Positions 7,476 through 52,499 of a stretch of DNA of 64,000 nt are shown piece after piece; position 1 is the stretch's first letter, and the number at the start of each line of letters is the position of its first letter. The translations under genes were made by a program, and so were the position numbers. The stretch covers positions 23,695 through 87,694 of the forward strand of contig JAABSH010000012.1 of assembly GCA_011390465.1 (NCBI GenBank). Direction: 5' to 3'. Under the pieces are notes generated by a model, which was not told where the DNA came from, searched no databases, and saw only the letters and a program-made list of their open reading frames with translations. Source of the stretch: Desulfobacteraceae bacterium. Its GTDB lineage: Bacteria > Desulfobacterota > Desulfobacteria > Desulfobacterales > Desulfosalsimonadaceae.

Positions 7476-7886
7476 TTATGTTTTTTCAGGGTCTTTTTCA
7501 GTCTCATCCGATTTTCTTAAATTGCGGAGTAAAAAATCAGAATCCTGAATTTTCATGGCAGTGAAAATTTTTTTTCCGGTTGCGGTAATCCTGTTGTACC
7601 GGATGGCTTCCGTTTCCGGGTCGGCTTCCGGGTTGGCTTCCGGGGGATGCGGGGCGGTGGTGATAATGCGCGGCCCAGTCCCGGACCGGGTAATGTTTTC
7701 AATGATAACCGTGGATATTTTGTCAATGATAACCCGGCGTTTTGCCTGCGCGGAATCGGAAAAGCCTGTGTCGTCGTCTGCATCGTCTGCACCGGCAATA
7801 TCGCCGTTGCGGCATGCCTGCTGTTTTGCCAAACCCCGGGTATAGGCATCCAGTACATTATAAATCTGATGGGCGGGTATTTGCAT
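7476..7886 (-). CDS. Hypothetical protein resembling the DVU0524 (FlgM-associated) family
   Basis: A small, mostly helical protein. The start MQIPAHQIYNVLDAYTRGLAKQQ and the later AQAKRRVIIDKISTVIIENIT segment resemble the DVU0524-type family, which often lies beside flagellar flgM in Desulfobacterota. No flagellar gene is nearby, so the functional link is not supported here. I start at ATG 7886 (136 aa) because the longer ORF extends into frame-shifted Nudix sequence; the start overlaps the nudix gene by 29 bp, suggesting translational coupling, and no strong ribosome-binding site is visible. The middle holds a short repeat reading PEANPEADPETEA, encoded by near-identical 12-base units (about 7610-7650). 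Confidence 0.6.
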   Translation of the reverse strand: MQIPAHQIYNVLDAYTRGLAKQQACRNGDIAGADDADDDTGFSDSAQAKRRVIIDKISTVIIENITRSGTGPRIITTAPHPPEANPEADPETEAIRYNRITATGKKIFTAMKIQDSDFLLRNLRKSDETEKDPEKT

Positions 7887-8379
7887 AAGCTGAATAATAG
7901 AGTTTGATAAATTTCCAGTGGCTGTCAAAGGCAATTTCCGGCAGATCGTCGGCCGTAAACCAGGCAACCGCATCCGCATCGTCTCCGGCAACAAGATTTC
8001 CGGAAAATGACCGGACCAGAAATCCGGTCATCATCACGGTTTCGTAAAGGGTGCTGTGATTGCTGGTAACCCCTAAAAGCATGTCGATTTTTCCCTTGAG
8101 GCCGGTTTCCTCGGCCAGTTCCCGCAGGCCGCCCTGTTCCGGTGTTTCCCCCAGTTCCATAAATCCGCCTGGAAGACACCACCAGCCTTTTTTGGGATCC
8201 ACGCTGCGTTTTACCAAAAGCAGCCGGTCCCGGGCGTCCACCGTGACCATGCAGGTGGCGGGCACGGGATTTTCATAAATCGGCATCTGGCAGGCGTCGC
8301 AATACAGCCGCTGTCTGCCTTCATGATATTTTTTGCTCAGCAGGCCGCCGCAGAAATGGCAGTGGGTTTTTTTCAGCAT
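7858..8379 (-). CDS. Nudix hydrolase with N-terminal zinc ribbon
   Basis: A 173-residue protein with a four-cysteine zinc ribbon at the N-terminus (Cys7, Cys10, Cys27, Cys30: CHFCGG and YCDAC), then a Nudix fold. The Nudix box is complete: GGFMELGETPEQGGLRELAEETG matches Gx5Ex7REUxEExGU. The arrangement resembles NudC-like NADH pyrophosphatases, but the protein is shorter and lacks the SQPWPFPxS NudC signature, so the substrate (NADH, ADP-ribose or another nucleotide) cannot be read from sequence. It lies downstream of the aldolase gene on the same strand, beyond a long hairpin repeat, and is followed by the DVU0524-like gene. Confidence 0.9.
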   Translation of the reverse strand: MLKKTHCHFCGGLLSKKYHEGRQRLYCDACQMPIYENPVPATCMVTVDARDRLLLVKRSVDPKKGWWCLPGGFMELGETPEQGGLRELAEETGLKGKIDMLLGVTSNHSTLYETVMMTGFLVRSFSGNLVAGDDADAVAWFTADDLPEIAFDSHWKFIKLYYSAYANTRPSDL

Positions 8380-8429
8380 TTCTGAGTCTTTTTATTATGA
8401 TGCAATCGTAAAAACTTGGAGTTAGGCGG

Positions 8430-8547
8430 CAAAGTATAAAAGTTCAAATGCAAGGCGCGCAAATCCCCAGCAATGAGGCGTACTTGGCGTACGTTGAAGC
8501 AGCTGGGGATGCAGCGCAACAAAGAATTTGGACTTTTTACGAAGCCG
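8430..8547. repeat. Long imperfect hairpin element directly after the aldolase stop
   Basis: Left arm aaaagttcaaatgcaagg... (from 8438) pairs with right arm ...aagaatttggactttt (to 8537). Together they form a stem of roughly 35 bp with small bulges. The centre holds cgtac-ttg-gcgtacg. The element starts immediately after the fba TGA, reading the minus strand as CGGCTTCGTAAAAAGTCC. I recall similar GGCTTCGTAAAAAGTC hairpins as dispersed repeats in Desulfobacteraceae (from memory). It may also act as a transcript end or stabiliser. Confidence 0.75.
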
Positions 8548-9837
8548 TCAGTCGTCAAAATTACCTTCCGGCCCCTTGTCGCCGTCAATGGCCCCTGCTT
8601 TTTCCGCGATTTTTGCCGGGGTCCAGTCGTCCGGATTTTCAATACGGCCGGCTTTGGGGCCGGGATCATGGGAGCCCGCCTTGATAATCGCGTCAATGGC
8701 CAGATCCGCCGTATCCTGACTGTTGAACACATTCACCAGCAGGTTATAAACAAAATCTTCCACGCGTTTTGCCATGCGTTCCCGGATATCCGCGGGCTGA
8801 GACAGAAGCAGGTTTTCAAAAGGCAGATTGAGTTTTTTGAAATCCCCTTTTTTGAGTCCCCGCTCAGCCGCGTACGCGGTCATTTTTTTCCAGTTATCCT
8901 CGGACATGCCTTCGTTTTCAACTTTGATGAAATTGCCGTCATCATCCAGCTGGGCATTGCCGTAATCATTAACCGTCAACCCCCAGGAAATCATCTGAAG
9001 GGCCGTGGCCACGTTGGCTTTGGTGGTGCGGGTGCTGACAGCGATTTTGCGCAGGCGCTCGGAGCTGTTGCCCGAAGTGCCGTGCTGGGCCCCGGAAATA
9101 TGATAGGGGGCCAAGGCCTCATGAATTTTGGCGGTAAGTTCCACCTGGATGCCTTCGGCCCCGGCTTCAATGCCGTGGGTGGTGCCGTTGTTCAAGGCGA
9201 TCCAGTCCGGAAAAATGTCATGGGCGTTGAGCCCCTGAATCAGAAACAGGGCTTCTTCAACGGTGGAGAGGCCGTGTTTGCCTTTTATTTCACCAACTTC
9301 GGTTTCATAACCCGCCCAGTTGGGAATATACGAATTCAGGGTGAGATTGGCTTCGAGATTTTCCTTGTCCGGCAGATGGGAGGCGTCAATGGCAATGGAG
9401 GTCATGCCCGCGTCAAACATGGACGGAATTTCAGTTCTGGCGGTTTCAACGTCTTTGGGTCCTTTGATACCGTAATGGTCCGCGTGAATGGCCACGGGAA
9501 CGGTAATGGCGAACTGGTTGCACAGGTCATCCACCAGACGGGCAATATTCCAGTAATTGACCGCGCAATAGGCATTGGTGCCGCCTTCGGACTTGGCGAT
9601 TTCAATCATCAGGGTGGAATTGGCGCGCTGGGCCGCTTTTAACGCGCCCTGAATGACAAACAGATTTCTGCCGTTGGCAGCAATGGAAATGGCATTTCCT
9701 TTGGCCAGCATGGCCCGGTCAATGAATTTCCCGCTCACAATAAGGGCTCTGGAATGGGGAAAAAGGGATACAATATTGGGCGGTCTGCCGATTTCAAGGG
9801 CTTTTTCAAAAGATGCGTGTTTTTTGGATTCATTCAT
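8548..9837 (-). CDS. Class II fructose-bisphosphate aldolase family protein
   Basis: A 429-residue zinc aldolase of the class II family, predicted to cleave or form fructose 1,6-bisphosphate or a related ketose bisphosphate. Metal-binding HADHYG is in VPVAIHADHYGIKGP, and a second histidine motif is in SGAQHGTSGNSSERL. The GMTSIAIDASHLP stretch matches the FbaA/KbaY barrel. It is longer than the usual 300-360 residues because of a C-terminal extension ending in DDWTPAKIAEKAGAIDGDKGPEGNFDD. This long form occurs in several anaerobes, so substrate specificity (FBP or tagatose-BP) is open. It is downstream of the DUF2007 gene and may be co-transcribed with it. Confidence 0.88.
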   Translation of the reverse strand: MNESKKHASFEKALEIGRPPNIVSLFPHSRALIVSGKFIDRAMLAKGNAISIAANGRNLFVIQGALKAAQRANSTLMIEIAKSEGGTNAYCAVNYWNIARLVDDLCNQFAITVPVAIHADHYGIKGPKDVETARTEIPSMFDAGMTSIAIDASHLPDKENLEANLTLNSYIPNWAGYETEVGEIKGKHGLSTVEEALFLIQGLNAHDIFPDWIALNNGTTHGIEAGAEGIQVELTAKIHEALAPYHISGAQHGTSGNSSERLRKIAVSTRTTKANVATALQMISWGLTVNDYGNAQLDDDGNFIKVENEGMSEDNWKKMTAYAAERGLKKGDFKKLNLPFENLLLSQPADIRERMAKRVEDFVYNLLVNVFNSQDTADLAIDAIIKAGSHDPGPKAGRIENPDDWTPAKIAEKAGAIDGDKGPEGNFDD

Positions 9838-10508: not shown

Positions 10509-12026
10509 ATGGAAATTTTAGCTTCAACCGATTATCCCGCAGAACCCGTGGTGCTTGAAAAACTCTCTGCCAAGTTTATGAAGCAGTCCAGATTTGTGCC
10601 CCTGTCCATGGATGGCCGAACCCTGTGTATTGCCATGGTGGATCCGAATGATTTCTGGACCATTGATGCATTAAAGCAGGGGCTTGGGGTGGATGTGGAA
10701 GTTGCCGCCGGAAATGAAGCAGATGTGATCGAAGCAGTGGAACGGCTGTACGGCGCCGGCACCCAGTCCCTTGAAACCATCATAGAGGAAGCGGGCCGGG
10801 ATATTTTTGAGATTTCAGGCACCGGCAAGGAGGATGTGGCCCAGCTGCGGGATCTGGCGTCTGAAGCGCCCATCATCCGGCTGGTAAACCGGATTATTTT
10901 AAAAGCCATTGAGTTTCGGGCCAGTGACATCCATTTTGAGCCGTTTGAAGACCAGTTCAAGGTCCGGTTCCGGGTGGACGGGGTGCTTCATGAAATTGAA
11001 TCTCCACCCAAACGGCTCCAGGCCGCCATTATTTCCAGAATTAAAATCATGGCGGATCTGGACATTGCCGAACGCCGCCTGCCCCAGGACGGCCGCATCA
11101 AACTCAAAATTGCGTCCCGGGACGTTGATTTCCGGATTTCCACCATTCCCACCCTGTTTGGGGAAAGTCTGGTTATGCGCGTGCTGGACCGGGACATGCT
11201 GATTCTGGATCTTGAAAAGATCGGATTCCCGCGCCGTCTGCTGGAGCGGTATATGACCCTGATTCATCAGCCCTACGGCATGATTCTGGTGACCGGTCCC
11301 ACGGGCAGCGGCAAGACCTCCACCCTGTATACGTCTCTTGCCAAAATCAATGCGCCGGAAAATAAAATTATTACGCTGGAAGACCCGGTGGAATATTATC
11401 TTTCCGGGGTGAACCAGATTCAGGTGAACCGCAAAATCGGCATGACGTTTGCCAGCGGTTTGCGGGCCATTGTACGGCAGGACCCGGATATTATTCTGGT
11501 AGGGGAAATCCGGGACCGCGAAACCGCGGAAATCGCCATCCAGTCGGCCCTTACCGGGCATCTGCTCTTTTCCACCCTGCATACCAATGACGCGGTGGGC
11601 GCCATCAGCCGGCTTTTGGACATGGGAGTGGAAGGCTTTCTTTTGAGTTCCACCCTGCTGGGAGTTCTGGCCCAGCGGCTGGTGCGGGTGATCTGCGAGA
11701 ACTGCAAACAGCCGGTGGCGCCGGATGAAAAGCATCTGAGCGCAATGGGGCTTTCGGAAAAGGATATTGAAGGGGTCACTTTTTACAGCGGCAAAGGGTG
11801 CGAAAGCTGTCGCCACACCGGGTTTTCCGGCCGGACCGCGCTTTTTGAATATCTTGCCATTGACGCGGACATTCGCAATGAAATTTCCAAAAAATCCGAT
11901 TCGGAAACAATTAAAAAAATTGCCCTGGAAAAAGGGCTTAAAACCCTGCGCCAGAACGGGTGGGAAAAAATAAAAGACGGGGTGACCACCTTGTCCGAAG
12001 TTCTGCGGGTGACATTAGAGAAATAA
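10509..12026 (+). CDS. gspE: Type II secretion ATPase GspE
   Basis: Cytoplasmic hexameric ATPase that powers pseudopilus assembly. The 505-residue protein has an N-terminal N2-like domain to about residue 100. The catalytic domain follows, with Walker A GPTGSGKTSTLY (about 262-273), the Asp box ITLEDPVEYY, Walker B RQDPDIILVGEIRDRETAEIA and the His box LLFSTLHTNDA. The CM zinc element is present as CENCKQ (about 396) and CESCRHTG (about 431), typical of GspE rather than PilT. Only this first gene has a long upstream gap, so the operon promoter should lie in 10161-10508. It is followed by gspF after a single base. Confidence 0.96.
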   Translation: MEILASTDYPAEPVVLEKLSAKFMKQSRFVPLSMDGRTLCIAMVDPNDFWTIDALKQGLGVDVEVAAGNEADVIEAVERLYGAGTQSLETIIEEAGRDIFEISGTGKEDVAQLRDLASEAPIIRLVNRIILKAIEFRASDIHFEPFEDQFKVRFRVDGVLHEIESPPKRLQAAIISRIKIMADLDIAERRLPQDGRIKLKIASRDVDFRISTIPTLFGESLVMRVLDRDMLILDLEKIGFPRRLLERYMTLIHQPYGMILVTGPTGSGKTSTLYTSLAKINAPENKIITLEDPVEYYLSGVNQIQVNRKIGMTFASGLRAIVRQDPDIILVGEIRDRETAEIAIQSALTGHLLFSTLHTNDAVGAISRLLDMGVEGFLLSSTLLGVLAQRLVRVICENCKQPVAPDEKHLSAMGLSEKDIEGVTFYSGKGCESCRHTGFSGRTALFEYLAIDADIRNEISKKSDSETIKKIALEKGLKTLRQNGWEKIKDGVTTLSEVLRVTLEK

Positions 12027-39919: not shown

Positions 39920-40897
39920 TTGGAAGGTTTCCAATCAACTGGACGCAGATTGTCCTTGAAACGTTTTTTTGGAATGGAAATGCAAACTTTTCCCACAGTT
40001 TTTCATATTACCCATCATAAAGCCGGATCCCAGTGGGTGGCGGAGATTCTAAAATATTGTGCTTTGGATCGATTCCAGCGTCCGGATGTTGATTTGTCTT
40101 TTTTTTACAATGTGCCGATCAAGCTGGAAACGGTTTATTTGACGGTTTATGTCCCCAAAAAAGATTTTAATCATATTACAGCAGCTCAGCCCTTGTTTTC
40201 AAGATCGGGGATAAAGTATGCGATAGTCCACCCGTCCGTTTATCTGAAAAACTGGATTAATTTTCGCAGAAAAGAAATGCCTTGCAGACATTTCGTGGTG
40301 ATTCGTGATCTCAGAGATACGCTGGTGTCTTTATATTTCAGCTGGAAAATCAGTCATGCGTTTCATTTTCCGTGGCAATTTAAATCCCGTGAAATATTGA
40401 ATAAGGTATCCGTGGAACAAGGATTGGCCGCCTGGATTGGAGATGGTGAACGATCAGTATATAATGGTCTGTTGGATCCGCCTTTTCTGAGAAAACATTA
40501 TGACCGCATGAATAATGCCGATGAAAACGGTATCATGGCTTTTTTGCAAAATATTCTTGATTATATCGCAGATATTCAGGCCTCATGGATGAATGATGAT
40601 GCATTGATGATTCGATATGAGGATCTTATCTCCGATGAAATAGGTGGTTTTGAAAAAATTGTGGATCACTGCCAGATACCGGTCAGTCGTGAACGACTGC
40701 ATGAGATTATTCATTATAACCGGTTTGAAACTGTTACGGGGAGGCATCCCGGTGAAGAAGATGTTCAGGCCCACCAGCGGAAGGGCATCTCCGGAGACTG
40801 GCGCAATTATTTTTCTCTGTCTGTGAAAGAAAAGTTTAAATCACGCTTTGGCGATGTTTTGATTAAAACCGGATATGAATCTGATTTAAACTGGTAG
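39920..40897 (+). CDS. Sulfotransferase A
   Basis: PAPS-dependent sulfotransferase fold. The 5'-phosphosulfate loop is FHITHHKAGSQWVAEIL and the 3'-phosphate motif is FVVIRDLRDTLVSLYFSW; a late RKGISGDWRNYF resembles the RKGxxGDWKNxF PAPS-binding motif of cytosolic sulfotransferases. It is a close paralogue of the gene at 51729, with the same ending pattern TGYExDxxW. It carries about 60 extra residues, mainly between the two PAPS motifs. The start is uncertain: TTG 39920 gives an N-terminus aligned to the paralogue, while ATG 39974 is safer by codon. It probably sulfates the polysaccharide built by the downstream genes; the acceptor is unknown. Confidence 0.85.
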   Translation: MEGFQSTGRRLSLKRFFGMEMQTFPTVFHITHHKAGSQWVAEILKYCALDRFQRPDVDLSFFYNVPIKLETVYLTVYVPKKDFNHITAAQPLFSRSGIKYAIVHPSVYLKNWINFRRKEMPCRHFVVIRDLRDTLVSLYFSWKISHAFHFPWQFKSREILNKVSVEQGLAAWIGDGERSVYNGLLDPPFLRKHYDRMNNADENGIMAFLQNILDYIADIQASWMNDDALMIRYEDLISDEIGGFEKIVDHCQIPVSRERLHEIIHYNRFETVTGRHPGEEDVQAHQRKGISGDWRNYFSLSVKEKFKSRFGDVLIKTGYESDLNW

Positions 40898-40928: not shown

Positions 40929-41432
40929 ATGTTTAGGAAGCTATCTTTATATTTGTATACTGCTATCAGTCACTGGCTTTCGGCACAGAAAGACCGGCAG
41001 CTAAAAGCGGCCATGCATTTTTGCGGCAAAGATGTGACGTTGTATCATCCGGTGATTTTTTATGGGGCGGAAGCGTTGGATGTAGGGGACAATACATCTG
41101 TGGCACCATACGTGCATATGTGGTGCGGCGGCCGGGTCATTATCGGCGCCCGGTGCATGATCGGCAGCCATACCGCCATTACGTCCCTGACCCATGATTA
41201 TGATGCGCCGGAAATGTGGAAAACAATTAAAGCTGCGCCGGTGATTATCGGTGATGATGTGTGGATTGGGTCGCATGCGGTGATATTACCTGGAGTGAAG
41301 ATCCAAAATGGCGCTGTAATAGGCGCGGGAAGTATTGTTTCCAGGGATGTGCCGGAAAATGCTGTGGTATATGGAAGTCCGGCAGCAGTTCAGGCGTATC
41401 GACAAATTTCAGATGTAAAAAAACAGGCGTAA
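40929..41432 (+). CDS. Left-handed beta-helix acyltransferase (hexapeptide repeat)
   Basis: 167 residues with hexapeptide repeats: VGDNTSVAPYVHMWCGGRVIIGARCMIGSHTAITSLTHDY, then APVIIGDDVWIGSHAVILPGVKIQNGAVIGAGSIVSRDVPENAVVYGSPA. The terminal GSPA motif and the His in TSLTHDY are typical of WbbJ/maltose-O-acetyltransferase-like enzymes, so sugar O-acetylation is the likely reaction. It lies between sulfotransferase A and a glycosyltransferase in the same direction. Confidence 0.9.
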   Translation: MFRKLSLYLYTAISHWLSAQKDRQLKAAMHFCGKDVTLYHPVIFYGAEALDVGDNTSVAPYVHMWCGGRVIIGARCMIGSHTAITSLTHDYDAPEMWKTIKAAPVIIGDDVWIGSHAVILPGVKIQNGAVIGAGSIVSRDVPENAVVYGSPAAVQAYRQISDVKKQA

Positions 41433-41446
41433 TGGAGTTATAATAC

Positions 41447-43354
41447 ATGGGAGCGATCAGCTTCTCCATTGATAAAGATCTTGTGGAGTTTTTCAGCCGG
41501 CATCTGCCGTTTGATGTTTTTGTTGAAACCGGAACGTATAAAGGTGATTCCATTGACCGCGTCAAACCCTATTTCAAAGCGTTTTATTCCGTGGAGCTGT
41601 CTGAATATTATGCTGATTTTGCAAGGGATCGGTTTTTAAAAGATCCGATGGTGCAGATTGTTTGTGGCAATGCGCCTGATGAGATCCGGCGGCTTCAGTC
41701 TGAGATAAAAGACAGATCGGTTTTGTATTGGCTGGATTCCCACTGGTGCGATGCCCAGGCCACACAAGGAAAGACCTCCCAGTGCACGTTGGCGGGGGAA
41801 CTCAAGGCTATTGAGAACCTCAACAAAAACAGTGTGATATTGATTGATGATGCCCGCCTTTTTTTAAGCCCTCCCGGCCCCCCGCATGATTATACCCAAT
41901 GGCCGAATCTGAATGAAATCATCCAGTTGTTGAAAGTAATATCCGGCAGCCATGAGTTGATGGTCTTGAATGACGTGTTGGTGTATTGTCCGGAGCATAT
42001 CAGGGAACATATTCGCAAATATGCTCATGAGAAGGGAGTTGACTGGCTGACCATTGCGGATATGTATCGGCAGACCGAGGCGCTTCTGGCTGAAATAGAG
42101 GCGAAGGAAAAAGAAATTGCCTCCATTTCCCTTGAAAATAAAATCCTGGTAAAGGAAATTGAATCCAAGGAATCTGAAATCCAGCTAAAGCAGCATGAAA
42201 TCAAAAATATAGCATCTGTGGCGGACCAGCGACTCTTTGTCCTTCAGCAGTTTGAGGATGCCAAAGAGGCCATTCGTGTTGCCATGGCAGCGGAAAATGT
42301 AGAAAAACAGAAGCATATCGAAACACTGAAAGCGCTTTATGAAGAAAAAGACAGACATATTGCAAAAGTGGAGGCGATTTCCGAATCCCGGCTTCAGGTC
42401 ATTCAGGAGCAGGAAAACGCCATCAACGCGCTTCGCCGCCGCCGGATCAAAGACCGGCTTCGCCAATGGCTTCAGCCTCGTCTGGGACTGTTGTATCATT
42501 ATCCGCCCCGACCCTTGAAAATCCCTCCAAAATATTCCAGAGAACAGGAAAAGCAGTTTCCGCCCGGGGGATGGCCCCTGATATCCATTGTTACGCCTTC
42601 TTACAATCAGGCGGATTTTATTGAGCGGACCCTTCAAAGTGTTTTGGAGCAGCGTTATCCGAAGCTGGAGTATCTGATTCAGGACGGGGCATCGAATGAC
42701 GGTACTGTGGAAGTTCTTAAAGAATATGAAGATCAACTGGCGCGCTGGGAATCTGCTGAAGATGAAGGGCAATCCGATGCATTGAACAAAGGGTTTGCCC
42801 ATGCCACCGGCGCTGTCATGGCCTATCTGAATTCTGATGATCTGCTGCTGCCGGGGGCGCTTTATTATGTGGCTGATTATTTTGCCCGGCATCCGGAAGT
42901 GGATGTGGTGTATGGCCACCGGGTGCTGGTGGATGAATACAGCCAGGAGATCGGCCGCTGGGTCATGCCGCCTCATGATGATGCGGTGCTGTCCTGGGCG
43001 GATTACATTCCTCAGGAAACCATGTTCTGGCGGCGGGAAATCTGGGAAAAAGCCGGCGGTTTTATAGATAAAAATTTTAAATTTGCCATGGACTGGGATC
43101 TGATTTTACGATTTCGGGAAGCCGGTGCCAAAATTGTCTGTCTGCCCCGGTTTCTGGGGGCCTTCCGGGTGCACCCCCACCAGAAAACATCTGCGGAAAT
43201 TTCCAGCCAGGGGGATCGGGAAATGCAGCAGCTCAGAAAAAGAAGTCTTGGCCGTACCGTATCTGAGGCGGAAATTAATCAGAACATTAAAAAATATCTT
43301 ACCCGGCATGTGTTTTATCAGAAACTTTACCGGGCCGGGCTATTGAGATATTAA
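41447..43354 (+). CDS. Fusion of methyltransferase-like domain, coiled coil and GT2 glycosyltransferase
   Basis: 635 residues. Residues 1 to about 200 have a Rossmann methyltransferase-like start (PFDVFVETGTYKGDSIDRV, FYSVELSEYYADFARDRF, VLYWLDSHWCDAQAT, SVILIDDARLF). Residues about 205-330 form a long Glu/Lys-rich coiled coil. Residues about 375-590 are a family 2 glycosyltransferase: PLISIVTPSYNQADFIERTL, DGASNDGTVEVL, MAYLNSDDLLLPGAL (DxD-like SDD), MDWDLILRF. The methyltransferase-like part could modify the growing chain or set its length, but cofactor binding is not proven by sequence. Confidence 0.85.
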   Translation: MGAISFSIDKDLVEFFSRHLPFDVFVETGTYKGDSIDRVKPYFKAFYSVELSEYYADFARDRFLKDPMVQIVCGNAPDEIRRLQSEIKDRSVLYWLDSHWCDAQATQGKTSQCTLAGELKAIENLNKNSVILIDDARLFLSPPGPPHDYTQWPNLNEIIQLLKVISGSHELMVLNDVLVYCPEHIREHIRKYAHEKGVDWLTIADMYRQTEALLAEIEAKEKEIASISLENKILVKEIESKESEIQLKQHEIKNIASVADQRLFVLQQFEDAKEAIRVAMAAENVEKQKHIETLKALYEEKDRHIAKVEAISESRLQVIQEQENAINALRRRRIKDRLRQWLQPRLGLLYHYPPRPLKIPPKYSREQEKQFPPGGWPLISIVTPSYNQADFIERTLQSVLEQRYPKLEYLIQDGASNDGTVEVLKEYEDQLARWESAEDEGQSDALNKGFAHATGAVMAYLNSDDLLLPGALYYVADYFARHPEVDVVYGHRVLVDEYSQEIGRWVMPPHDDAVLSWADYIPQETMFWRREIWEKAGGFIDKNFKFAMDWDLILRFREAGAKIVCLPRFLGAFRVHPHQKTSAEISSQGDREMQQLRKRSLGRTVSEAEINQNIKKYLTRHVFYQKLYRAGLLRY

Positions 43355-43377: not shown

Positions 43378-44472
43378 ATGCCGCATTTTTCTATTGTCAT
43401 CCCCAATCTGAACCAGAGCGATTTTTTGCCGGATGCGCTGGAAAGCCTTTGTCACCAAAATGTTTCCTTTGCGCTTGCGGTGATGGACGGCGGCTCTTCT
43501 GATGGGGTTGGCGAGATTGTAGAGAAATATTCAGATATTATCACTTATTTTCAATCCGGTCCGGATGGCGGGCAGGCACATGCCATCAGAGAGGGGTTCA
43601 GCCGGATCGACGGAGAGGTTATCGCCTGGCTGAATGCAGATGATTATTATTTCCCCGGCGCTTTGAATAAGGTTTTGGATTTTTTTGAAAAAAATCCAGG
43701 AGTGGATGTTGTTTACGGCGATGCCGTTCATGTGAGGCCGGATGGCGCATTTATATCTTATTTTCCTGCTATCGAGGATTTTGATTCCAAAAAACTGCCG
43801 TTTTCCTGTTTTATCTGTCAGCCGGCCTGTTTTGTGAGGCGAAGTGCCTATGATGCAGTTGGCGGCATAAATCCTGCATTAACATATGCCATGGACTGGG
43901 ACCTCTGGTGCCGGTTGGCAGCCTGTGGTGCCCGGTTTGAACGCTTGCACGATGTGCTGGCTGCTGTTCGTTATTACCCGGAAACCAAAACTTTGAGCGG
44001 GGGCAAGCGGCGATATCTGGAAATATGGAAAATTGGAAGAAAATACGGCGGGCAGCTTTTGCCGGTATCATGGCCGGCCTTTTATCGGTTTGACCTGTCT
44101 TTTAAAAGCAATAGATCTGCCGGGGAAAATTTTGTGTTTCACTTACTGGAAGGCGCCAGGTATTTGAAAAAGAAATTTTTTAAAAAAAAATCCTTGCCCC
44201 TTTACGGCTTTTACCCATGGCAGGCCCGGGTAGCCGGCTGTGCTCTCATTCAGTTTCCGTGTTATCACGATTTTTCCCCCCAGTCCCTGACGTTAAATAT
44301 TTTTCCTGAAAATGCAAAGTTTAATGTTGAAATTGACGGGAAATCTTTTCAGACAATACATGCCCGGGGGAATGTCCTGACTATTGACATGCCGGTATCT
44401 GAAGCCCCGTGCCGCCGGGTTGCCATCTGGTGTTTGGGACAGGAAAACTGGGAAATAATCGCATTTTTATGA
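43378..44472 (+). CDS. GT2 family glycosyltransferase
   Basis: 364 residues. GT-A fold motifs: FSIVIPNLNQSDFLPDALESL, VMDGGSSDGVGEIVEKY, VIAWLNADDYYFPGAL (metal-binding ADD) and TYAMDWDLWCRLAACG. The N-terminal 220 residues are closely similar in pattern to the GT2 half of the preceding fusion protein. The last 100 residues (GCALIQFPCYHDFSPQSLTLNIF ... WCLGQENWEIIAFL) form an extra beta domain of unknown role. Confidence 0.9.
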   Translation: MPHFSIVIPNLNQSDFLPDALESLCHQNVSFALAVMDGGSSDGVGEIVEKYSDIITYFQSGPDGGQAHAIREGFSRIDGEVIAWLNADDYYFPGALNKVLDFFEKNPGVDVVYGDAVHVRPDGAFISYFPAIEDFDSKKLPFSCFICQPACFVRRSAYDAVGGINPALTYAMDWDLWCRLAACGARFERLHDVLAAVRYYPETKTLSGGKRRYLEIWKIGRKYGGQLLPVSWPAFYRFDLSFKSNRSAGENFVFHLLEGARYLKKKFFKKKSLPLYGFYPWQARVAGCALIQFPCYHDFSPQSLTLNIFPENAKFNVEIDGKSFQTIHARGNVLTIDMPVSEAPCRRVAIWCLGQENWEIIAFL

Positions 44473-44488
44473 TTGTCACCGTACGGGT

Positions 44489-45298
44489 ATGGAATCTGCA
44501 AGGCATAAAAGAAAAAAATCCAGTACCAGTGGCCCGGTAATGCCGCTGGTCAGTATTATCACCCCGGTTTTGAATTGTGGCAGGATGGTAGAAAATTACA
44601 TTCGCCACATACATGCGCAAACCTATGAAAGAATCGAACTTTTAATTATTGACGGCGGCTCTAGTGATGATACGATAACTATTTTAAAATTATCAGACGC
44701 CAAAATAAATTTTTGGGTTTCTGCGCCGGATAACGGGATTTATGACGCCATGAACAAAGGCATTGATATGGCCAGGGGAGACTGGTTGTTTTTTTCCGGT
44801 GTTGATGACAGTTTTATTCATCCTGAAATTCTTGAAACCGTATTTTTAAATAGTGAAATTCCTGACTGTATACAGTTGATCTGCGGCAACATTATCAGAA
44901 GTGACGGAAAAAAGATAACCAGCAGATTCAACAGACAATTGTATATGAAAAACACCATGCCCCATCAGGGTGTTTTCTATCGGCGGGATTTGTTTGACCA
45001 TTATCGGTATACCGGCTCTGGCAAGCACGGGCCGGGGCGTTTTTATCAAATATCTGGTGATTATCATTTAAATTTATTTTTGTACAGGTGTGGGGCAAGA
45101 CATCAGTATATTGATTTGACCATCATGCAGTGCGGTCAGGGGAAATCCATGGCCGGAAATTTTCGCGGGTATTGGGAAGAAATTTTGATTCGGCATCAGC
45201 TGCTCGGGCACACCACCAGTATATTGTTTGATGGACTGACCCTGCTACGGTATTTGAGGCAGAGATGCAGGCCAAAGTTAACCGTTGAAAAGCGGTAA
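44489..45298 (+). CDS. GT2 family glycosyltransferase
   Basis: 269 residues: PLVSIITPVLNCGRMVENYIRHI, LLIIDGGSSDDTITIL, DNGIYDAMNKGIDMARGDWLFFSGVDDSF. The SAPDNGIYDAMNKGI signature is typical of WcaA/SpsA-like bacterial enzymes that add sugars to surface polysaccharide. It contains HQGVFYRRDLF, the usual acceptor-side motif. The coding end overlaps the next gene by 14 bp. Confidence 0.9.
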   Translation: MESARHKRKKSSTSGPVMPLVSIITPVLNCGRMVENYIRHIHAQTYERIELLIIDGGSSDDTITILKLSDAKINFWVSAPDNGIYDAMNKGIDMARGDWLFFSGVDDSFIHPEILETVFLNSEIPDCIQLICGNIIRSDGKKITSRFNRQLYMKNTMPHQGVFYRRDLFDHYRYTGSGKHGPGRFYQISGDYHLNLFLYRCGARHQYIDLTIMQCGQGKSMAGNFRGYWEEILIRHQLLGHTTSILFDGLTLLRYLRQRCRPKLTVEKR

Positions 45299-46217
45299 AA
45301 CTTGGATTTGGAATGGATTCACGGACAGATGTATTCAGGATGCGTATCCTTTGCTTGATATTATCATAATTAATTATAACAGTACGGATTGTCTAATTCA
45401 GTGTCTTGGGTCGTTAGCAGAAGCAGCAGGCCGCATTCAAATCAATGTTTTGGTGGCAGACAACAATTCCCGGGACCATGCCCAGCGGATTGCGGCCATG
45501 TTTCCCGGGGTTCAACTGCTTGCTAACCACAAGAACATTGGATTTGCAAAGGCTGTCAACCAATGTATTCTAAAAAGCAGCTCCCCGTATCTGATGCTCC
45601 TGAATCCGGATACCATTGCAGCACCGGGCGCTTTCGCTTCTATGCTGTCGTATATGGAATCCCACTCAGATGTGGGAATCCTCGGGCCGGCAATTTATGA
45701 TCATGACCGGAAAATTCAGGGGTCAGCCCGGTCTTTTCCAACGCCGTTTACGGCATTCTTCGGCCGCAGTTCTCTGCTGACCCGATTGTTTCCGAATAAC
45801 CGGGTCACATGCAGAAATATATTAAACAAGGCATCTGATGGTGAAACCCCCATTCCGGTAGATTGGCTGTCCGGTGCCTGTATGCTGGTCCGGAGCAAGG
45901 CTGTGAAGGAGGTTGGTCTGTTGGACAGTAATTTTTTTATGTACTGGGAGGATGCGGACTGGTGTCGCCGGATGACGAAAAAAGGCTGGAAAGTGGTTTA
46001 TTACCCAAACGCATCCGTAACACATTATATCGGTGTGAGCAGTGAACAGAACCTGACCCGGGCTGTGGTTGAATTTCACAAAAGTGCCTATTATCTGTTC
46101 AATAAATATTACCCGTCTACTCCGGGCAGCGCCAAAATATTGGTAATGCTGGGATTGACGGCTCGTGCAGGCTTTTTAATGGCGCTTCATTGGCTCCGCC
46201 GCCGGTATCTGCGCTAA
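45285..46217 (+). CDS. GT2 family glycosyltransferase (rhamnosyltransferase-like)
   Basis: 310 residues beginning at TTG 45285, within the end of the preceding gene. Motifs DIIIINYNSTDCLIQCLGSL, VADNNSRD, ANHKNIGFAKAVNQCI, LMLLNPDTIAAPG and PVDWLSGACMLVRSKAVKEVGLLDSNFFMYWEDADWCRRM are those of WbbL-like dTDP-rhamnosyltransferases. Sugar donor inferred only from family resemblance. The C-terminal helix LMALHWLRRRYLR is membrane-associating. Confidence 0.9.
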   Translation: MKSGKTWIWNGFTDRCIQDAYPLLDIIIINYNSTDCLIQCLGSLAEAAGRIQINVLVADNNSRDHAQRIAAMFPGVQLLANHKNIGFAKAVNQCILKSSSPYLMLLNPDTIAAPGAFASMLSYMESHSDVGILGPAIYDHDRKIQGSARSFPTPFTAFFGRSSLLTRLFPNNRVTCRNILNKASDGETPIPVDWLSGACMLVRSKAVKEVGLLDSNFFMYWEDADWCRRMTKKGWKVVYYPNASVTHYIGVSSEQNLTRAVVEFHKSAYYLFNKYYPSTPGSAKILVMLGLTARAGFLMALHWLRRRYLR

Positions 46218-46275: not shown

Positions 46276-47244
46276 ATGAAAATATTGATTACGGGAGGAG
46301 CGGGATTTATTGGCTCTCATCTGGTGGACAGGCTGGTCCGTGACGGTCATGATGTGACATCAGTTGATGATCTGAGTACCGGCAGTATGAAAAATATCCG
46401 GCAGCACCAGAATAACGGCCGGTTTAAGCTGGTTGTGGACACAATTTTAAATGAACGCCTTATGGATGAGATGGTGTCGGCATGCGATCAGGTTTACCAT
46501 TTGGCTGCGGCGGTCGGTGTGAAGTTGATTATGAATCGTCCCGTGGAAACCCTGGAGACCAATGTCAAGGGCACGGAAATGGTGCTTTCCATGGCCAACA
46601 AATACAAAAAAAAAGTCTTAATCGCGTCCACCAGCGAAGTATATGGCAAAATTATGAATGGCAACGGCACGCCTCCGTTGAAGGAAGACACGGACCGGTT
46701 GATGGGGGCTACTACCAAGCGCAGGTGGGCCTATGCCTGTTCCAAGGCCTTTGATGAGTTTTTGGCCCTGGCCTATTATGAAGAAAAACGCCTGCCGGTG
46801 ATTATTGCGAGACTTTTTAATACTGTGGGCCCTCGGCAGACAGGCCAATACGGCATGGTGCTGCCGAATTTTGTGCAGAAGGCATTGATTGGTAAACCCA
46901 TCATTGTTTACGGGGACGGGTTCCAGTCCAGAAGTTTTACCCATATTGACGATGTGGTGGAAGCCCTGGTTTGTTTAATGGCGGAGCCTGCGGCGGTGGG
47001 GCAGGTGATTAATGTGGGAAATGAAGAAGAGATCACCATTAAGGAGCTTGCGCTGATGGTGAAAAAGATGACCCAAAGCAGTTCGGAGATTGAATCCATC
47101 ACCTATGACCGCGCCTATGGTCCGGGTTTTGAAGACATGCAACGCCGGTCTCCGGATATCAGCAAATTAAGATCATTGATCGGGTTTGAGCCCCGCGGTG
47201 ATCTTCATTCCATCATTCAAAGCGTTATTGATTATTATCTTTAA
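46276..47244 (+). CDS. Extended SDR nucleotide-sugar epimerase/dehydratase (UXS/GalE-like)
   Basis: 322 residues. NAD-binding ITGGAGFIGSHLVDRL, VDDLSTGS, the catalytic TSEVYG and YACSK (Tyr-x-x-x-Lys) motifs, then RLFNTVGPRQTGQYGMVLPNFV. The closest textbook relatives are UDP-glucuronate decarboxylase and UDP-glucose 4-epimerase; the exact product cannot be read from sequence. CAGGG precedes the ATG. It supplies an activated sugar for the glycan locus and is followed at once by the WecA-type gene. Confidence 0.9.
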   Translation: MKILITGGAGFIGSHLVDRLVRDGHDVTSVDDLSTGSMKNIRQHQNNGRFKLVVDTILNERLMDEMVSACDQVYHLAAAVGVKLIMNRPVETLETNVKGTEMVLSMANKYKKKVLIASTSEVYGKIMNGNGTPPLKEDTDRLMGATTKRRWAYACSKAFDEFLALAYYEEKRLPVIIARLFNTVGPRQTGQYGMVLPNFVQKALIGKPIIVYGDGFQSRSFTHIDDVVEALVCLMAEPAAVGQVINVGNEEEITIKELALMVKKMTQSSSEIESITYDRAYGPGFEDMQRRSPDISKLRSLIGFEPRGDLHSIIQSVIDYYL

Positions 47245-47246
47245 CA

Positions 47247-49082
47247 ATGATTCCGCTTACGGCTTACAGTGCTGCATTTTTTATCGCACTTGGCGGTGCG
47301 CTTGCGCTTACTCCCCTTGTCAGGCATATTGCTGTTAAATATCATTATGTGGCAGAGCCGCGAGCTGATCGGTGGCACCAAAAAACCACCGGGCTTTTTG
47401 GTGGCGTCAGTATTTTTGTCAGCATGATGGTTGCATGGCTGGTGGTGTCGGGCCTTTTTTTTTCGTATTCGCAGGTTCTTCAGCCGCTTTTGCCTGTTGC
47501 AATAGGCGGTGCTGCAATGTTTTTCCTGGGTTTGGTCGACGATATTACTGAAATTAATCCGCAGTATAAACTGATCGGTCAGGTTATCATCGCATCGGTG
47601 CTGGTAATTTTCGGGTTTCAATTCAGCTGGTTTGATTCCAGGACAGCTAACCTGCTTGTCAGTATTTTCTGGATTGTGGGTATTACCAATGCCTTTAACC
47701 TGCTGGACAATATGGACGGTCTTTCTGCCGGTGTTGCCTGTATATCCGGTTTTTTCCTTTTTTTATGGCAGGTTATCGGTACCATTAGCCCGCTGACGAT
47801 ACCGGTCCAGCTGATGCTTTCGGCCTATATCGGTGCGCTTTTGGGATTTTTGGTGTATAATTTCAACCCGGCATCCATTTTCATGGGGGATGCTGGCAGT
47901 CTTTTTATCGGGTTTATGATGGCCTGTCTCGCGTTATCGGAAACTCCCGCCAAAACACAGGCCTCTCCTTTTTTTAATCAGCTTTCCGTTATTGCCATAC
48001 CCTGCCTGATCATGCTGATACCGATTCTGGATACGGCGTTTGTCAGTATTATGCGAAAATTGTTTGACCGGTCCATTTTTCAGGGGGGGCGGGATCATTC
48101 CTCGCATCGGATGGTGGCCATCGGGTTTTCAGAAAAAAAAGCCGTGATTGTTTTATATGTTTTCGCCTTTTTGTCCGGACTTCTGGCCATGTGTCTCCAT
48201 CCTCTGGATGCCGGTATCAGCTGGGTGATAGTTACGCTTTATCTGATTTTGATTTTGTTTTTCTGGGCGTATCTGGCAAAAGTGGAAGTTTATTCACAAG
48301 ATTCCAATACGCTCAACCGATCCTCAAAAACCTTACTGCCCCGATGGATAGAAATTGGTTACGGCCAGACCCTGCTGTCGGTTTTAATGGATTTAATTTT
48401 AATTACCATTGCCTATTATGCAGCCTATCTGTTACGGTTCGGCGGCGCAATCGGGCAGGATTTTGATTTTTTTATAAAATCCCTTCCTATTTTGTATGCC
48501 TGCCAGATATTCAGTTTGTATATCTCCGGGGTTTATCAGCGCTTGTGGTGGGGGTCGCGGCTCGGGGATGTTGCCGTTTATGTTAAAGGTGTTACCGGCG
48601 GCACCGTGCTGACAATGCTGGTTTTGCTTTTTTTGTATCGGTTTCAGAGTTTTTCCAGGGCCGTGTTTATTATTTACTGGGCCATCATATTGATTTTTAT
48701 TTCATTCTCGCGGTTTTTTTTCAGGCTGCTGGATGAATGGGTCAGCCGGGGCAACCGGAACGGAAAACCCGCCCTGATTTACGGTGCTGGTATTGGTGGG
48801 CAGATGATGCTTCGGGAAATCCAGACCAACAGCAGTCTGGGGTTGTCTCTGGTGGGGTTTATCGACGACGATCCCGGAAAAAAAGGAAAAAAAATTAATG
48901 GTTATCCTGTGATCGGCAATGGGCGGCAATTGGAATCGGTTATCAATCAATACAACATTGAATCGGTGATTGTCTCGTTTCAGATTAATGGGGATGAAAA
49001 AAAACGGGAAATCCAGCAGTTGTGTGTTCGCAAAGGACTGGATACAAAAATTACCCGTATGCGCCTGATTCTTAATCCATAG
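47247..49082 (+). CDS. Fusion of WecA/TagO-type sugar-phosphate transferase with CapD-like membrane/CoA-binding half
   Basis: 611 residues. The first about 350 are a polytopic GT4 initiating transferase: RADRWHQKTTGLFGGVSIF, FFLGLVDDITEINPQYKL (DD catalytic), AFNLLDNMDGLSAG, FMGDAGSLFIGFM and GGRDHSSHRMVAIGFSEKKA. Such enzymes attach the first sugar-1-phosphate to undecaprenyl phosphate. The remainder (four more helices, then ALIYGAGIGGQMMLREIQ and VGFIDDDPGKKGKKINGYPVIG) is the N-terminal and CoA-binding-like half of CapD/WbpM proteins, without the SDR catalytic domain. It sits between the epimerase and the exporter genes and should start glycan assembly. Confidence 0.9.
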   Translation: MIPLTAYSAAFFIALGGALALTPLVRHIAVKYHYVAEPRADRWHQKTTGLFGGVSIFVSMMVAWLVVSGLFFSYSQVLQPLLPVAIGGAAMFFLGLVDDITEINPQYKLIGQVIIASVLVIFGFQFSWFDSRTANLLVSIFWIVGITNAFNLLDNMDGLSAGVACISGFFLFLWQVIGTISPLTIPVQLMLSAYIGALLGFLVYNFNPASIFMGDAGSLFIGFMMACLALSETPAKTQASPFFNQLSVIAIPCLIMLIPILDTAFVSIMRKLFDRSIFQGGRDHSSHRMVAIGFSEKKAVIVLYVFAFLSGLLAMCLHPLDAGISWVIVTLYLILILFFWAYLAKVEVYSQDSNTLNRSSKTLLPRWIEIGYGQTLLSVLMDLILITIAYYAAYLLRFGGAIGQDFDFFIKSLPILYACQIFSLYISGVYQRLWWGSRLGDVAVYVKGVTGGTVLTMLVLLFLYRFQSFSRAVFIIYWAIILIFISFSRFFFRLLDEWVSRGNRNGKPALIYGAGIGGQMMLREIQTNSSLGLSLVGFIDDDPGKKGKKINGYPVIGNGRQLESVINQYNIESVIVSFQINGDEKKREIQQLCVRKGLDTKITRMRLILNP

Positions 49083-49135: not shown

Positions 49136-50008
49136 ATGTCAGACATTAAGATTATAACCAAAACTTCAGGTGGCGGATTTGTAGCGTATTTGAATCCGCT
49201 GTCTCTTTTGAAGAGCATTAAACGTCATGGCTCACTCCTGCATCAGTTTGTACGGTGGGAAGTAAATGACCGGTACCGGGGATCCGCTTTGGGCATGCTG
49301 TGGACGGTTATTGTGCCGCTGCTGCGGCTCTCGGTCTATACCCTGGTCTTTTCCATTCTTCTGGGCGGAAAAAAGGTGGTCTGGGGTCTGGAATCCAACT
49401 TTGCGGTGGGAGAGATGATTTTTTGCGGATTTATTCTGTTCAATGTGTTTTCCGAAGCGGTTGGCAAAGCCTCCCGGCTGATGTGGATAAACAAGTCCTA
49501 TGTAAAAAATATTGTTTTTCCCCTGGAGATTATTCCGGTTATCAGTATGGGCGTAGCGGTTGTGCATTCTTTTATCGGTATGATGGTCCTGGTGTTTCTG
49601 GAAGCGGTGTTTGGGGGGGGTATTCACTGGACCCTGATCTATCTGCCATTGATATATCTTCCCCTGATTTTTTTTGTCACAGGAATTTCGTGGATACTTT
49701 CAGTGCTTGGAGTGTTCAGCCGGGATATCGACAATCTGATGCAGAGTCTGATTCAGATGCTGTTTCTTCTATCCGCCATTATTTTTCCACTGGAACGGCT
49801 GATGGGGATGGTTCCGGACGGATGGCACTGGGTTCTGCGGCTGAATATTATTGCATCAGTGGTTGATGATGCCCGTCGTATTGTGCTGGAAGGAATCTCT
49901 CCAGACTGGTACTGGCTGATTGTCAATACAATTGCGGCATCAGCATTGTTGCTTATCGGATATGCCTGGTTTATGAGTCGCAAAAAGGATTTTGCGGATG
50001 TTGTCTGA
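49136..50008 (+). CDS. wzm: ABC-2 polysaccharide exporter permease (Wzm type)
   Basis: 290 residues with six membrane helices. The N-terminal amphipathic segment is LLHQFVRWEVNDRYRGSALGMLWTVIVPLL, and the pattern WINKSYVKNIVFPLEIIPV is conserved in Wzm/TagG permeases. It pairs with the ATPase gene that overlaps its 3' end by 11 bp. It would move the undecaprenyl-linked polysaccharide across the inner membrane. The ATG has a weak ribosome-binding site. Confidence 0.93.
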   Translation: MSDIKIITKTSGGGFVAYLNPLSLLKSIKRHGSLLHQFVRWEVNDRYRGSALGMLWTVIVPLLRLSVYTLVFSILLGGKKVVWGLESNFAVGEMIFCGFILFNVFSEAVGKASRLMWINKSYVKNIVFPLEIIPVISMGVAVVHSFIGMMVLVFLEAVFGGGIHWTLIYLPLIYLPLIFFVTGISWILSVLGVFSRDIDNLMQSLIQMLFLLSAIIFPLERLMGMVPDGWHWVLRLNIIASVVDDARRIVLEGISPDWYWLIVNTIAASALLLIGYAWFMSRKKDFADVV

Positions 50009-50795
50009 ACGATTTTCCGAACTCGATTTTTTTAAAAAGTCGGATAATGTTATATCTGTCCGGAATATAAGTAAAATTTTTCCGCTTTATGACAACCCGC
50101 TGGATCGGCTAAAGCAGCAGATGTTCAGAAGCAGTACATACTATAAAGAATTCTGGGCGTTGCGGAATATCAGTTTTGATATGAAAAAAGGGGAAGCCAG
50201 AGGCATCATGGGACATAACGGTGCCGGCAAAAGTACGTTGCTGAGAATTCTGGCGGGCACCATTTCTCCGAGTGCCGGAAAAATATTTATCAAGGGCCGG
50301 GTCGGAGCTATCATGACCATGGGCAGCGGGTTTAAACAGGATTTTACCGGCAGGGAAAATGTTTATGTGCTGGGGGCGCTTATGGATATCCCTAACGACC
50401 GGGTGGCGGCACGGATGGAACAGGTCCGGGAGTTTGCCGGACTTGGAATATTTTTTGACAAACCGGTGCGTACCTATTCCAGTGGCATGCTGGCCCGGCT
50501 GGCCTTTGCGGTGTATACGAATATGGAGCCGGACATCCTGATTGTAGATGAGGCCATTAACGTGGGGGACGCGGATTTCAAGCGTAAATGCCTGGAGCAT
50601 GTTTCAGTACTGGTAGAAAAAGGGATGTCGCTTTTACTGGTATCTCACAGTCCTCTGATTGTTGAGCAGTTTTGCCGGACAGCAACGGTTTTTAGAAAAG
50701 GTGAGATTGTTTTTGACGGCGATGTCAAAACTGCCGTGGCGGTATACAACAATAACCGTCCTTCGGGCTCAGGTAAAGAACATGTTGCCTTTTAA
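49998..50795 (+). CDS. wzt: Polysaccharide exporter ATPase (Wzt/KpsT type)
   Basis: 265 residues. Walker A GHNGAGKSTLLRILAG, signature YSSGMLARLAFAVYTNMEPDILIVDEAINVGD. There is no C-terminal carbohydrate-binding domain, so chain length is probably controlled elsewhere, as in KpsT/TagH-like exporters. ATG 49998 is chosen (AAGGA eight bases upstream) over TTG 49992. It overlaps the permease gene. Confidence 0.93.
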   Translation: MLSERFSELDFFKKSDNVISVRNISKIFPLYDNPLDRLKQQMFRSSTYYKEFWALRNISFDMKKGEARGIMGHNGAGKSTLLRILAGTISPSAGKIFIKGRVGAIMTMGSGFKQDFTGRENVYVLGALMDIPNDRVAARMEQVREFAGLGIFFDKPVRTYSSGMLARLAFAVYTNMEPDILIVDEAINVGDADFKRKCLEHVSVLVEKGMSLLLVSHSPLIVEQFCRTATVFRKGEIVFDGDVKTAVAVYNNNRPSGSGKEHVAF

Positions 50796-50860
50796 AAAAA
50801 TCGTAAAAATTGTCCTGAATATTTTTAAACCCTCTGTTTTTGACAAAAACGGGTGAACAA

Positions 50861-51670
50861 ATGAAGTATCCTGTTTTTTTAGATTCCGTGCCGAAATCCG
50901 GCACTCATTTGCTGGCAAAAGCCCTGATGGGGTTTCCGAAAATGGATCACAGCGGCAGGCATATGGATCGTAAGACCATTGCGGAGTTTGTGGATAACGA
51001 TGTGGAATTTCCTACGGAAGGCCGTGAAGATATCAATATTCAATCTGATTTTCCCTGGATAAAGCGACTGTTGCAGTCTGTTCCGGCCGGGCGGTTTATC
51101 ACGGCCCACTTACCCTATCATTTTAAGATTCATCAAATCCTTGAGCAGATGAATTTCAAAATACTTGTGATGATGCGTGACCCCAGAGACGTGGTGCTTT
51201 CCTGGGCCGACTACATCGCCAAAGAAAAAAATCACCTTTTGTATCCCTTTTTCAGGAATACGGACCGCGAATACCGGATTATCTGCGGAATTAAAGGCGT
51301 CAGCAGTGATATCACCAAAACCCGACCTCAGCCGCCGATTGCACAGTTGATAAACGGCCATATGAAATGGAAACGGCAGGGCGGTGCATTCCTGGTGCAG
51401 TTTGAACAGCTTGTGGGGGAAAAGGGGGGCGGCACCAGGGAAAGCCAGTACCGGTTACTGGAACAATTGAGGGATTATCTGGAAATCGAAAAGGCTCCCA
51501 AATCATTGGAACATATCTGTGATACGCTTTTTGGGGGGACATATACATTTAACAGCGGAACCATCGGCCGGTGGCGCACCCAATTTAGTGATAAACACAA
51601 AGCAATTTTTAAGCAGGAGACCGGAAGGCTGCTGATCGACGCAGGGTATGAAAAAGATACCAATTGGTAG
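50861..51670 (+). CDS. Sulfotransferase B
   Basis: 269 residues from ATG 50861 (GGGTGA just upstream). PAPS-binding motifs: FLDSVPKSGTHLLAKAL (5' loop) and LVMMRDPRDVVLSWADYI (3' loop), plus a late GTIGRWRTQFSDKHKAIFKQETG. It is less similar to sulfotransferases A and C but shares the end pattern AGYEKDTNW. It follows the exporter ATPase after 65 bp. Sulfation of the exported glycan is the simplest role, but a protein or lipid acceptor is possible. Confidence 0.87.
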   Translation: MKYPVFLDSVPKSGTHLLAKALMGFPKMDHSGRHMDRKTIAEFVDNDVEFPTEGREDINIQSDFPWIKRLLQSVPAGRFITAHLPYHFKIHQILEQMNFKILVMMRDPRDVVLSWADYIAKEKNHLLYPFFRNTDREYRIICGIKGVSSDITKTRPQPPIAQLINGHMKWKRQGGAFLVQFEQLVGEKGGGTRESQYRLLEQLRDYLEIEKAPKSLEHICDTLFGGTYTFNSGTIGRWRTQFSDKHKAIFKQETGRLLIDAGYEKDTNW

Positions 51671-51728: not shown

Positions 51729-52499
51729 TTGAAATATATCAATAAGGTTAAAGAAAAATTTAATTTGAAGAAATCTTTTACGGAATCGTTGCCTTCCGTA
51801 TTTCATATTACCCACTACAAATCCGGCTCCCAGTGGGTGCTGGCGGTTTTAAACGAGGTGGCGAAAAACCGGATTGTCGCCCCCCAGGTGGGAGCAGCCC
51901 ATGTCACGGATAAGCCGATGATGCCAGGGATGATTTATCCCTGTGTCTATTTGCCCCGGCCAGCTTTTATCGCATCCAATCCTCCGGAAAATAAACGGAT
52001 TTTCATTGTGATGCGGGATTTGCGGGATACCCTGGTGTCCCTTTATTTCAGTGTGCGGAACAGTCACCAGATTGTGAATTCTGCCCAGCAGGAGTTAAGA
52101 GATGCGTTAAGGGCAAAAAAGACGAGCGAAGGCCTGCTTCTTTTGATGGATAAAAGACTTCATGTATCAGCACGGATACAGACTACCTGGATAGATAGCG
52201 AAAATCTGATGGTGCGGTATGAAGATTTGATCCGGGACGAGCAGGCTGAGTTTCAAAAAATCATATCTTACTGCAATATTGATATTACGGATGATGCTTT
52301 GTTTGCAGCGGTGAATCGTCATTCCTTTGAGAACCGCGTCGGCCGAAAGCGAGGGGAAGAGGATGTGAATTCCCACCACAGGAAAGGAGTAAGCGGTGAC
52401 TGGCAAAATTATTTTGATGAAAAGTTGATTCGGGAGTTTAAAAAACGCTATGGGGATGTCCTTATACAGACTGGATATGAAAAAGACACTGCCTGGTAG
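51729..52499 (+). CDS. Sulfotransferase C (paralogue of A)
   Basis: 256 residues from TTG 51729. FHITHYKSGSQWVLAVLNEV and FIVMRDLRDTLVSLYFSVRNSH are near-identical in pattern to sulfotransferase A, as are the C-terminal RKGVSGDWQNYFDEKLIREFKKRYGDVLIQTGYEKDTAW residues. A and C thus bracket the glycan locus, one at each end. This is probably a duplication in which each copy sulfates a different position. Confidence 0.87.
   Translation: MKYINKVKEKFNLKKSFTESLPSVFHITHYKSGSQWVLAVLNEVAKNRIVAPQVGAAHVTDKPMMPGMIYPCVYLPRPAFIASNPPENKRIFIVMRDLRDTLVSLYFSVRNSHQIVNSAQQELRDALRAKKTSEGLLLLMDKRLHVSARIQTTWIDSENLMVRYEDLIRDEQAEFQKIISYCNIDITDDALFAAVNRHSFENRVGRKRGEEDVNSHHRKGVSGDWQNYFDEKLIREFKKRYGDVLIQTGYEKDTAW

Follow-up and report, generated by a model that had tools for sequence, protein, structure and literature searches.

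The window analyzed here, a 64,000-nucleotide stretch of Desulfobacteraceae DNA, encodes one intact chain in which a methyltransferase-type domain, a long helical heptad linker and a GT2 glycosyltransferase follow one another. We interpret this fusion, with somewhat better than even confidence, as a chain terminator of an ABC-exported surface polysaccharide, functionally in one class with WbdD, WbbB and ORF6 of the O7 cluster. Full membership of that class is not claimed, since the exporter of the window genus carries no cap-binding domain and the activity is putative.

Architecture of the fusion and its gene cluster

The first-pass annotation had proposed a Rossmann or methyltransferase-like domain joined through a coiled coil of roughly 125 residues to a GT2 on the same chain, and all three parts hold up (Table 1), the coil being close to the linker that we delimit below. 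The GT2 matches PF00535 (aa 380-496, E 2.6e-26) and PF13641 (E 3.3e-15), giving Pfam coverage of aa 380-574, and its LNSDD reads as a DxD-like motif. It lies at the C-terminal end, where terminators of the class have a polymerase glycosyltransferase, either fused or recruited, and its own polymerase role is putative.

Table 1. Features of the fusion ORF and of the surrounding export cluster (window positions).
Feature	Position	Strand	Evidence
Sulfotransferase	39920..40897	+	PF00685 E 1.2e-16
Hexapeptide-repeat acyltransferase	40929..41432	+	PF00132 E 4.8e-14
Fusion ORF, 635 aa + stop	41447..43354	+	ATG start, no internal stop; orthologues found
N-terminal class I SAM-methyltransferase-type domain, aa 1-200	41447..42046	+	AlphaFold2, Foldseek PDB, profile vs PDB, conservation in 40 relatives
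Key N-domain residues: E27-G29-G33, E50, D97-H99, E118, D134-D135	within 41447..42046	+	
Coiled-coil linker, aa 202-343	42050..42475	+	3.5-residue periodicity; modeled helices
Polybasic conserved junction RRRRIKDRLRQWLQPRLG, about aa 330-349	42434..42493	+	Conserved in alignment
GT2 domain, about aa 375-575, with LNSDD motif	42569..43171	+	PF00535, PF13641
GT2b, neighboring GT2	43378..44472	+	Pfam; orthologues adjoin fusion in genus
GT2c	44489..45298	+	PF00535
GT2d	45285..46217	+	PF00535
SDR-type nucleotide-sugar enzyme	46276..47244	+	Sequence reading; 87-89% identical orthologue in genus
WecA/MraY-type initiating transferase fused to CoA_binding_3 domain	47247..49082	+	PF00953 E 1.3e-31, PF13727 E 2.8e-18
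Wzm-type ABC-2 permease	49136..50008	+	PF01061
Wzt-type ATPase, 267 aa, without Wzt_C cap-binding domain	49992..50795	+	PF00005, no PF14524

The fusion thus belongs to a Wzm/Wzt (ABC) export cluster, as the published terminators do. Three sulfotransferases flank the glycan cassette (39920-40897, 50840-51670 and 51729-52499), and the glycan product of the cluster may be sulfated. GT2b ends in a conserved tail of about 90 aa that has no Pfam match; a displaced cap-binding module was considered for this tail and rejected, as profile comparison revealed no similarity to Wzt_C regions.

The methyltransferase-coil and the GT2 are read as separate adjacent genes in one relative and probably in a second. 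In the former (G592), about 200 bp separate the end of the methyltransferase-coil from the start of a GT2 gene, which is in a different frame; in the latter, the alphaproteobacterium L048, a single in-frame TGA at 10940-10942 parts the two, so that the genes may be truly separate or the codon may be a nonsense change. This is the same variation as that published for O7 ORF6 orthologues, which occur with fused and with unfused glycosyltransferases (PMC11231755), and it supports the terminator reading.

The methyltransferase-type domain and the coiled coil

Although the first 200 residues match nothing in Pfam, NCBIfam or PHROGs, with a few relatives giving weak matches to Methyltransf_24, structural comparison places the N-domain among class I SAM methyltransferases. 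The AlphaFold2 model of residues 1-213 (pLDDT 85, pTM 0.86; 15 relatives as input) found class I SAM methyltransferases by Foldseek against the PDB, including the O-methyltransferases 4oa8 and 4pca (TM 0.56-0.60), and a 40-sequence profile matched PDB methyltransferases from E about 6e-6, with COMT at about 7e-4. Among the 60 PDB matches listed for that profile, judged by chain names, none was a WbdD chain. Across the 40 relatives, which reach down to about 25% identity, E27, G29, E50, L96, D97, H99, E118, D134 and D135 are invariant (40/40) and T28, T30, G33 and G74 nearly so. By position, we equate the invariant and nearly invariant residues with motif I, the acid that binds ribose and the metal/catalytic set of COMT-like enzymes. 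With COMT-type and Methyltransf_24 O-methyltransferases the domain shares the fold and the E-x-G-x3-G, acidic motif II, D-x-H and D-D positions, whereas the relationship is distant and the window N-domain falls under no Pfam model.

Because motif I, the motif II acid and the COMT-like set are conserved in the 40 relatives, the N-domain likely has a SAM site. As an O-methyltransferase it would probably be metal-dependent. A missing SAM pocket, which the first-pass annotation had named as fatal to its idea, is not what structure prediction returned: the predicted fold is that of a methyltransferase and the SAM motifs are conserved. On sequence grounds we regard the N-domain as a methyltransferase-type family without a name, also found in mosaic GT10/TPR/GT2 proteins. 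This family is widespread, with relatives encoded on 107 viral contigs, mostly as stand-alone proteins of about 200 aa, and in two of the viral set L049-L128 (L049 and L071) they are fused to another domain.

Between conserved 'VDWL' and 'PRLG' anchors, the linker of the window protein runs for 142 aa with no Pro and no Gly, and its hydrophobic periodicity peaks at 3.50 residues, a value reached by 8 of 2000 shuffles. The periodicity of five relatives was reached by 1 to 4 of 2000 shuffles, such that the coil is significant in six sequences altogether. The full-length AlphaFold2 model has helices at 200-280 and 287-342, at the low pLDDT expected there for a monomer model of one chain. Periodicity and modeled helices together describe an extended coiled coil, with the methyltransferase-type domain predicted at its distal N-terminal end, the position of the catalytic domain in the terminator class.

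Linker length varies widely among orthologues (142, 149, 149, 142, 181, 61, 61, 61 and 90 residues), from 142-149 in complete members of the window genus (142 in the window; 142, 149 and 149 in the others) to 181 in G480, 90 in G462 and 61 in three genomes of one genus, with periodicity not significant in the 61-aa genus nor in G462. Fully helical, the window linker would span at most about 21 nm, and the 61-aa linker spans at most about 9 nm. The G480 coil contains a perfect 42-bp tandem copy, placing the 14-residue, two-heptad unit HEKLTTDQAILAKD twice (L153, ORF 7488-9575). Indels within the window genus measure 7, 7 and 8 residues, and since the L046 case aligns as 8 residues we reject the notion that they are always whole heptads. 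We likewise reject a coil conserved in length; variable length had been named beforehand as evidence against a ruler, and a range of 61-181 residues is just that, but the objection is weak because altering the WbdD coil shifts the modal chain length while the ruler persists (PMC5082667). From these alignments we read the coil as real, with its heptad register mostly kept and its length free to change.

Next to the coil, terminators of the class have an amphipathic helix associated with the membrane. At the coil/GT boundary of the window protein the polybasic junction RRRRIKDRLRQWLQPRLG is a possible membrane-proximal segment; it is conserved in the alignment and its hydrophobic moment is not exceptional, and a strong amphipathic membrane helix there is thus not supported.

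Exporters, cap-binding domains and known terminators

The annotated absence of a cap-binding domain from Wzt proved correct and extends further: PF14524 (Wzt_C) matches neither the window Wzt nor anything in the whole window genome, and Wzt proteins of the window genus (254-268 aa) all lack it. In three other genera (G295/G644, G480 and G592) the orthologue occurs with Wzm and a Wzt of 429-483 aa carrying Wzt_C above the curated cut-off; for G592, the end of one contig carries the exporter together with the protein's first residues, and the remainder is on another contig. In G602, a further genome of the G295 genus, a weak match to Wzt_C adjoins the gene at the end of a contig; the L048 genome has no Wzt_C. 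Window-genus Wzm is just 30-37% identical to CBM-linked Wzm, which are 39-66% identical to each other, and this suggests that the exporter was replaced in the window genus rather than stripped of a domain. Within that genus, exactly 5 genomes have the fusion, the same ones whose Wzm reaches at least 58% identity, and it is absent from the others (0/6). One of the five copies, that of G402, is a fragment lying at the end of a contig, and G400 and G402 carry the two genes on separate contigs. Among distant N-domain relatives, 12 loci have no Wzm orthologue nearby.

In WbdD, WbbB, ORF7-O4 and ORF6-O7 a coiled coil bears the terminator at its distal end (PMC11231755, PMC9587256, PMC5082667), and coil control of chain length is established for O9/O3 WbdD and O12 WbbB (PMC5082667, PMC9587256). 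The likeness to WbdD that had been drawn for this protein is reasonable given the domain order, the ABC-exporter cluster and, in three other genera, orthologues that go with a Wzt carrying Wzt_C. In WbdD of E. coli O9a the coiled coil similarly keeps the methyltransferase off the membrane and is of similar size, a separation of about 200 Å set against the 142-aa window linker, whereas the WbdA polymerase is separate, WbdD has a kinase and the exporter reads the cap (PMC3482155, PMC5082667).

Closer in layout are two single-chain systems. WbbB of K. pneumoniae O12 and Raoultella terrigena unites a terminator and a polymerase with a helical spacer on one chain, but its terminator is a beta-Kdo transferase (GT99), it has two polymerase glycosyltransferases and its cognate exporter carries a cap-binding module (PMC9587256, PMC11231755). 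ORF6 of K. pneumoniae O7, compared here by its published description, runs methyltransferase-kinase-CBM-coiled coil-GT2-GT2 (PMC11231755); it shares with the window fusion an N-terminal methyltransferase, a coiled coil and a C-terminal GT2 in an ABC-exporter cluster, along with orthologues with and without fused glycosyltransferase modules, and differs in its added kinase, CBM and second GT2 and in its methyl-phosphate cap. These two systems refute the earlier suggestion that building the ruler into the glycosyltransferase would be something new, and we claim no novelty for the architecture (PMC11231755, PMC9587256). Relative to these terminators, the window fusion has another methyltransferase family, no kinase, one GT2 and a genus exporter without a cap reader. 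The terminator-coil-GT layout is already known; the literature searched gave no description of this methyltransferase family or of its pairing with a cap-reader-less exporter, and the main review of terminator systems (10.1093/glycob/cwz066) could already list relatives. The terminal 2-O-methyl system of V. cholerae O1 Ogawa also joins a terminal methyl to an ABC exporter without a CBM, though there loss of the methyl leaves export unblocked and a coiled-coil fusion is not mentioned (PMC10629545).

A putative mechanism, its alternatives and its meaning

As a terminator, the fusion would work as follows. By itself or together with GT2b-d, its GT2 would act on the lipid-linked chain at the membrane, while the coiled coil would keep the SAM- and probably metal-dependent O-methyltransferase at a distance from the membrane; once a chain had grown far enough to meet this enzyme, its non-reducing end would be O-methylated and growth would stop, with coil length thereby setting chain length. 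Because the window-genus exporter has no cap-binding domain, capping and export would probably be just loosely coupled there, as in V. cholerae O1 Ogawa.

This terminator reading is supported by a domain order the same as that of published terminators, by invariant SAM/metal residues together with O-methyltransferase structural neighbors, by the significant coil and a linker comparable with the WbdD separation (PMC5082667), by orthologues with Wzm and a Wzt_C-bearing Wzt in three genera, and by co-occurrence with the genus Wzm alongside distant relatives without one. Against it stand a window-genus Wzt that lacks the usual cap-reading part, the 61-aa linkers and coils not significant there or in G462, the alphaproteobacterial genome without Wzt_C, the absence of a kinase, of a detected sequence relation to WbdD and of a clear amphipathic membrane helix, and common stand-alone N-domain relatives, such that the domain need not be a terminator. 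These last relatives, and others in glycan enzymes without this coil, lend some weight to a bifunctional, non-terminating enzyme, in which the N-domain would O-methylate the sugar just added by the GT2 in each repeat, or a side chain, and the coil would merely oligomerize or tether. A threefold variation in coil length and a Wzt that reads no cap fit that account as well, yet heptad linkers with 7- and 14-aa indels and the Wzt_C exporter association in three genera are predicted by a terminator and unneeded by such an enzyme, which we consider possible but doubtful.

The separate grouping of window-genus Wzm/Wzt also raises an improbable variant in which a CBM-less exporter replaced the original and the methyltransferase, though still capping, has lost its say over export and chain length. 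Such a loss would agree with the broad range of chain lengths in systems that lack a cap-CBM mechanism (PMC10629545), but every genus member with sequence in that region retains both the SAM motifs and the long coil, and fusion and genus exporter occur together. We find it scarcely credible that the N-domain is catalytically dead, a Rossmann module used for glycan binding or as a scaffold: an activity for its family was not found described in the literature searched, but E27, G29, E50, D97, H99, E118, D134 and D135 do not vary even in the most distant of the 40 relatives.

Returning to the terminator, we entertain only tentatively, and think rather unlikely, its fullest form, a ruler fused to its glycosyltransferase and paired with an exporter without a cap reader, in which the ruler alone would set chain length with no export proofreading and the methyltransferase would belong to the unnamed family. 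As a terminator, the fusion would bring Desulfobacterota into the polymerase-terminator-ruler class, through another methyltransferase family. The loci differ in whether the exporter binds a cap and in linker length (61 to 181 residues), and they offer a natural comparison by which ruler and export checkpoint could be told apart.
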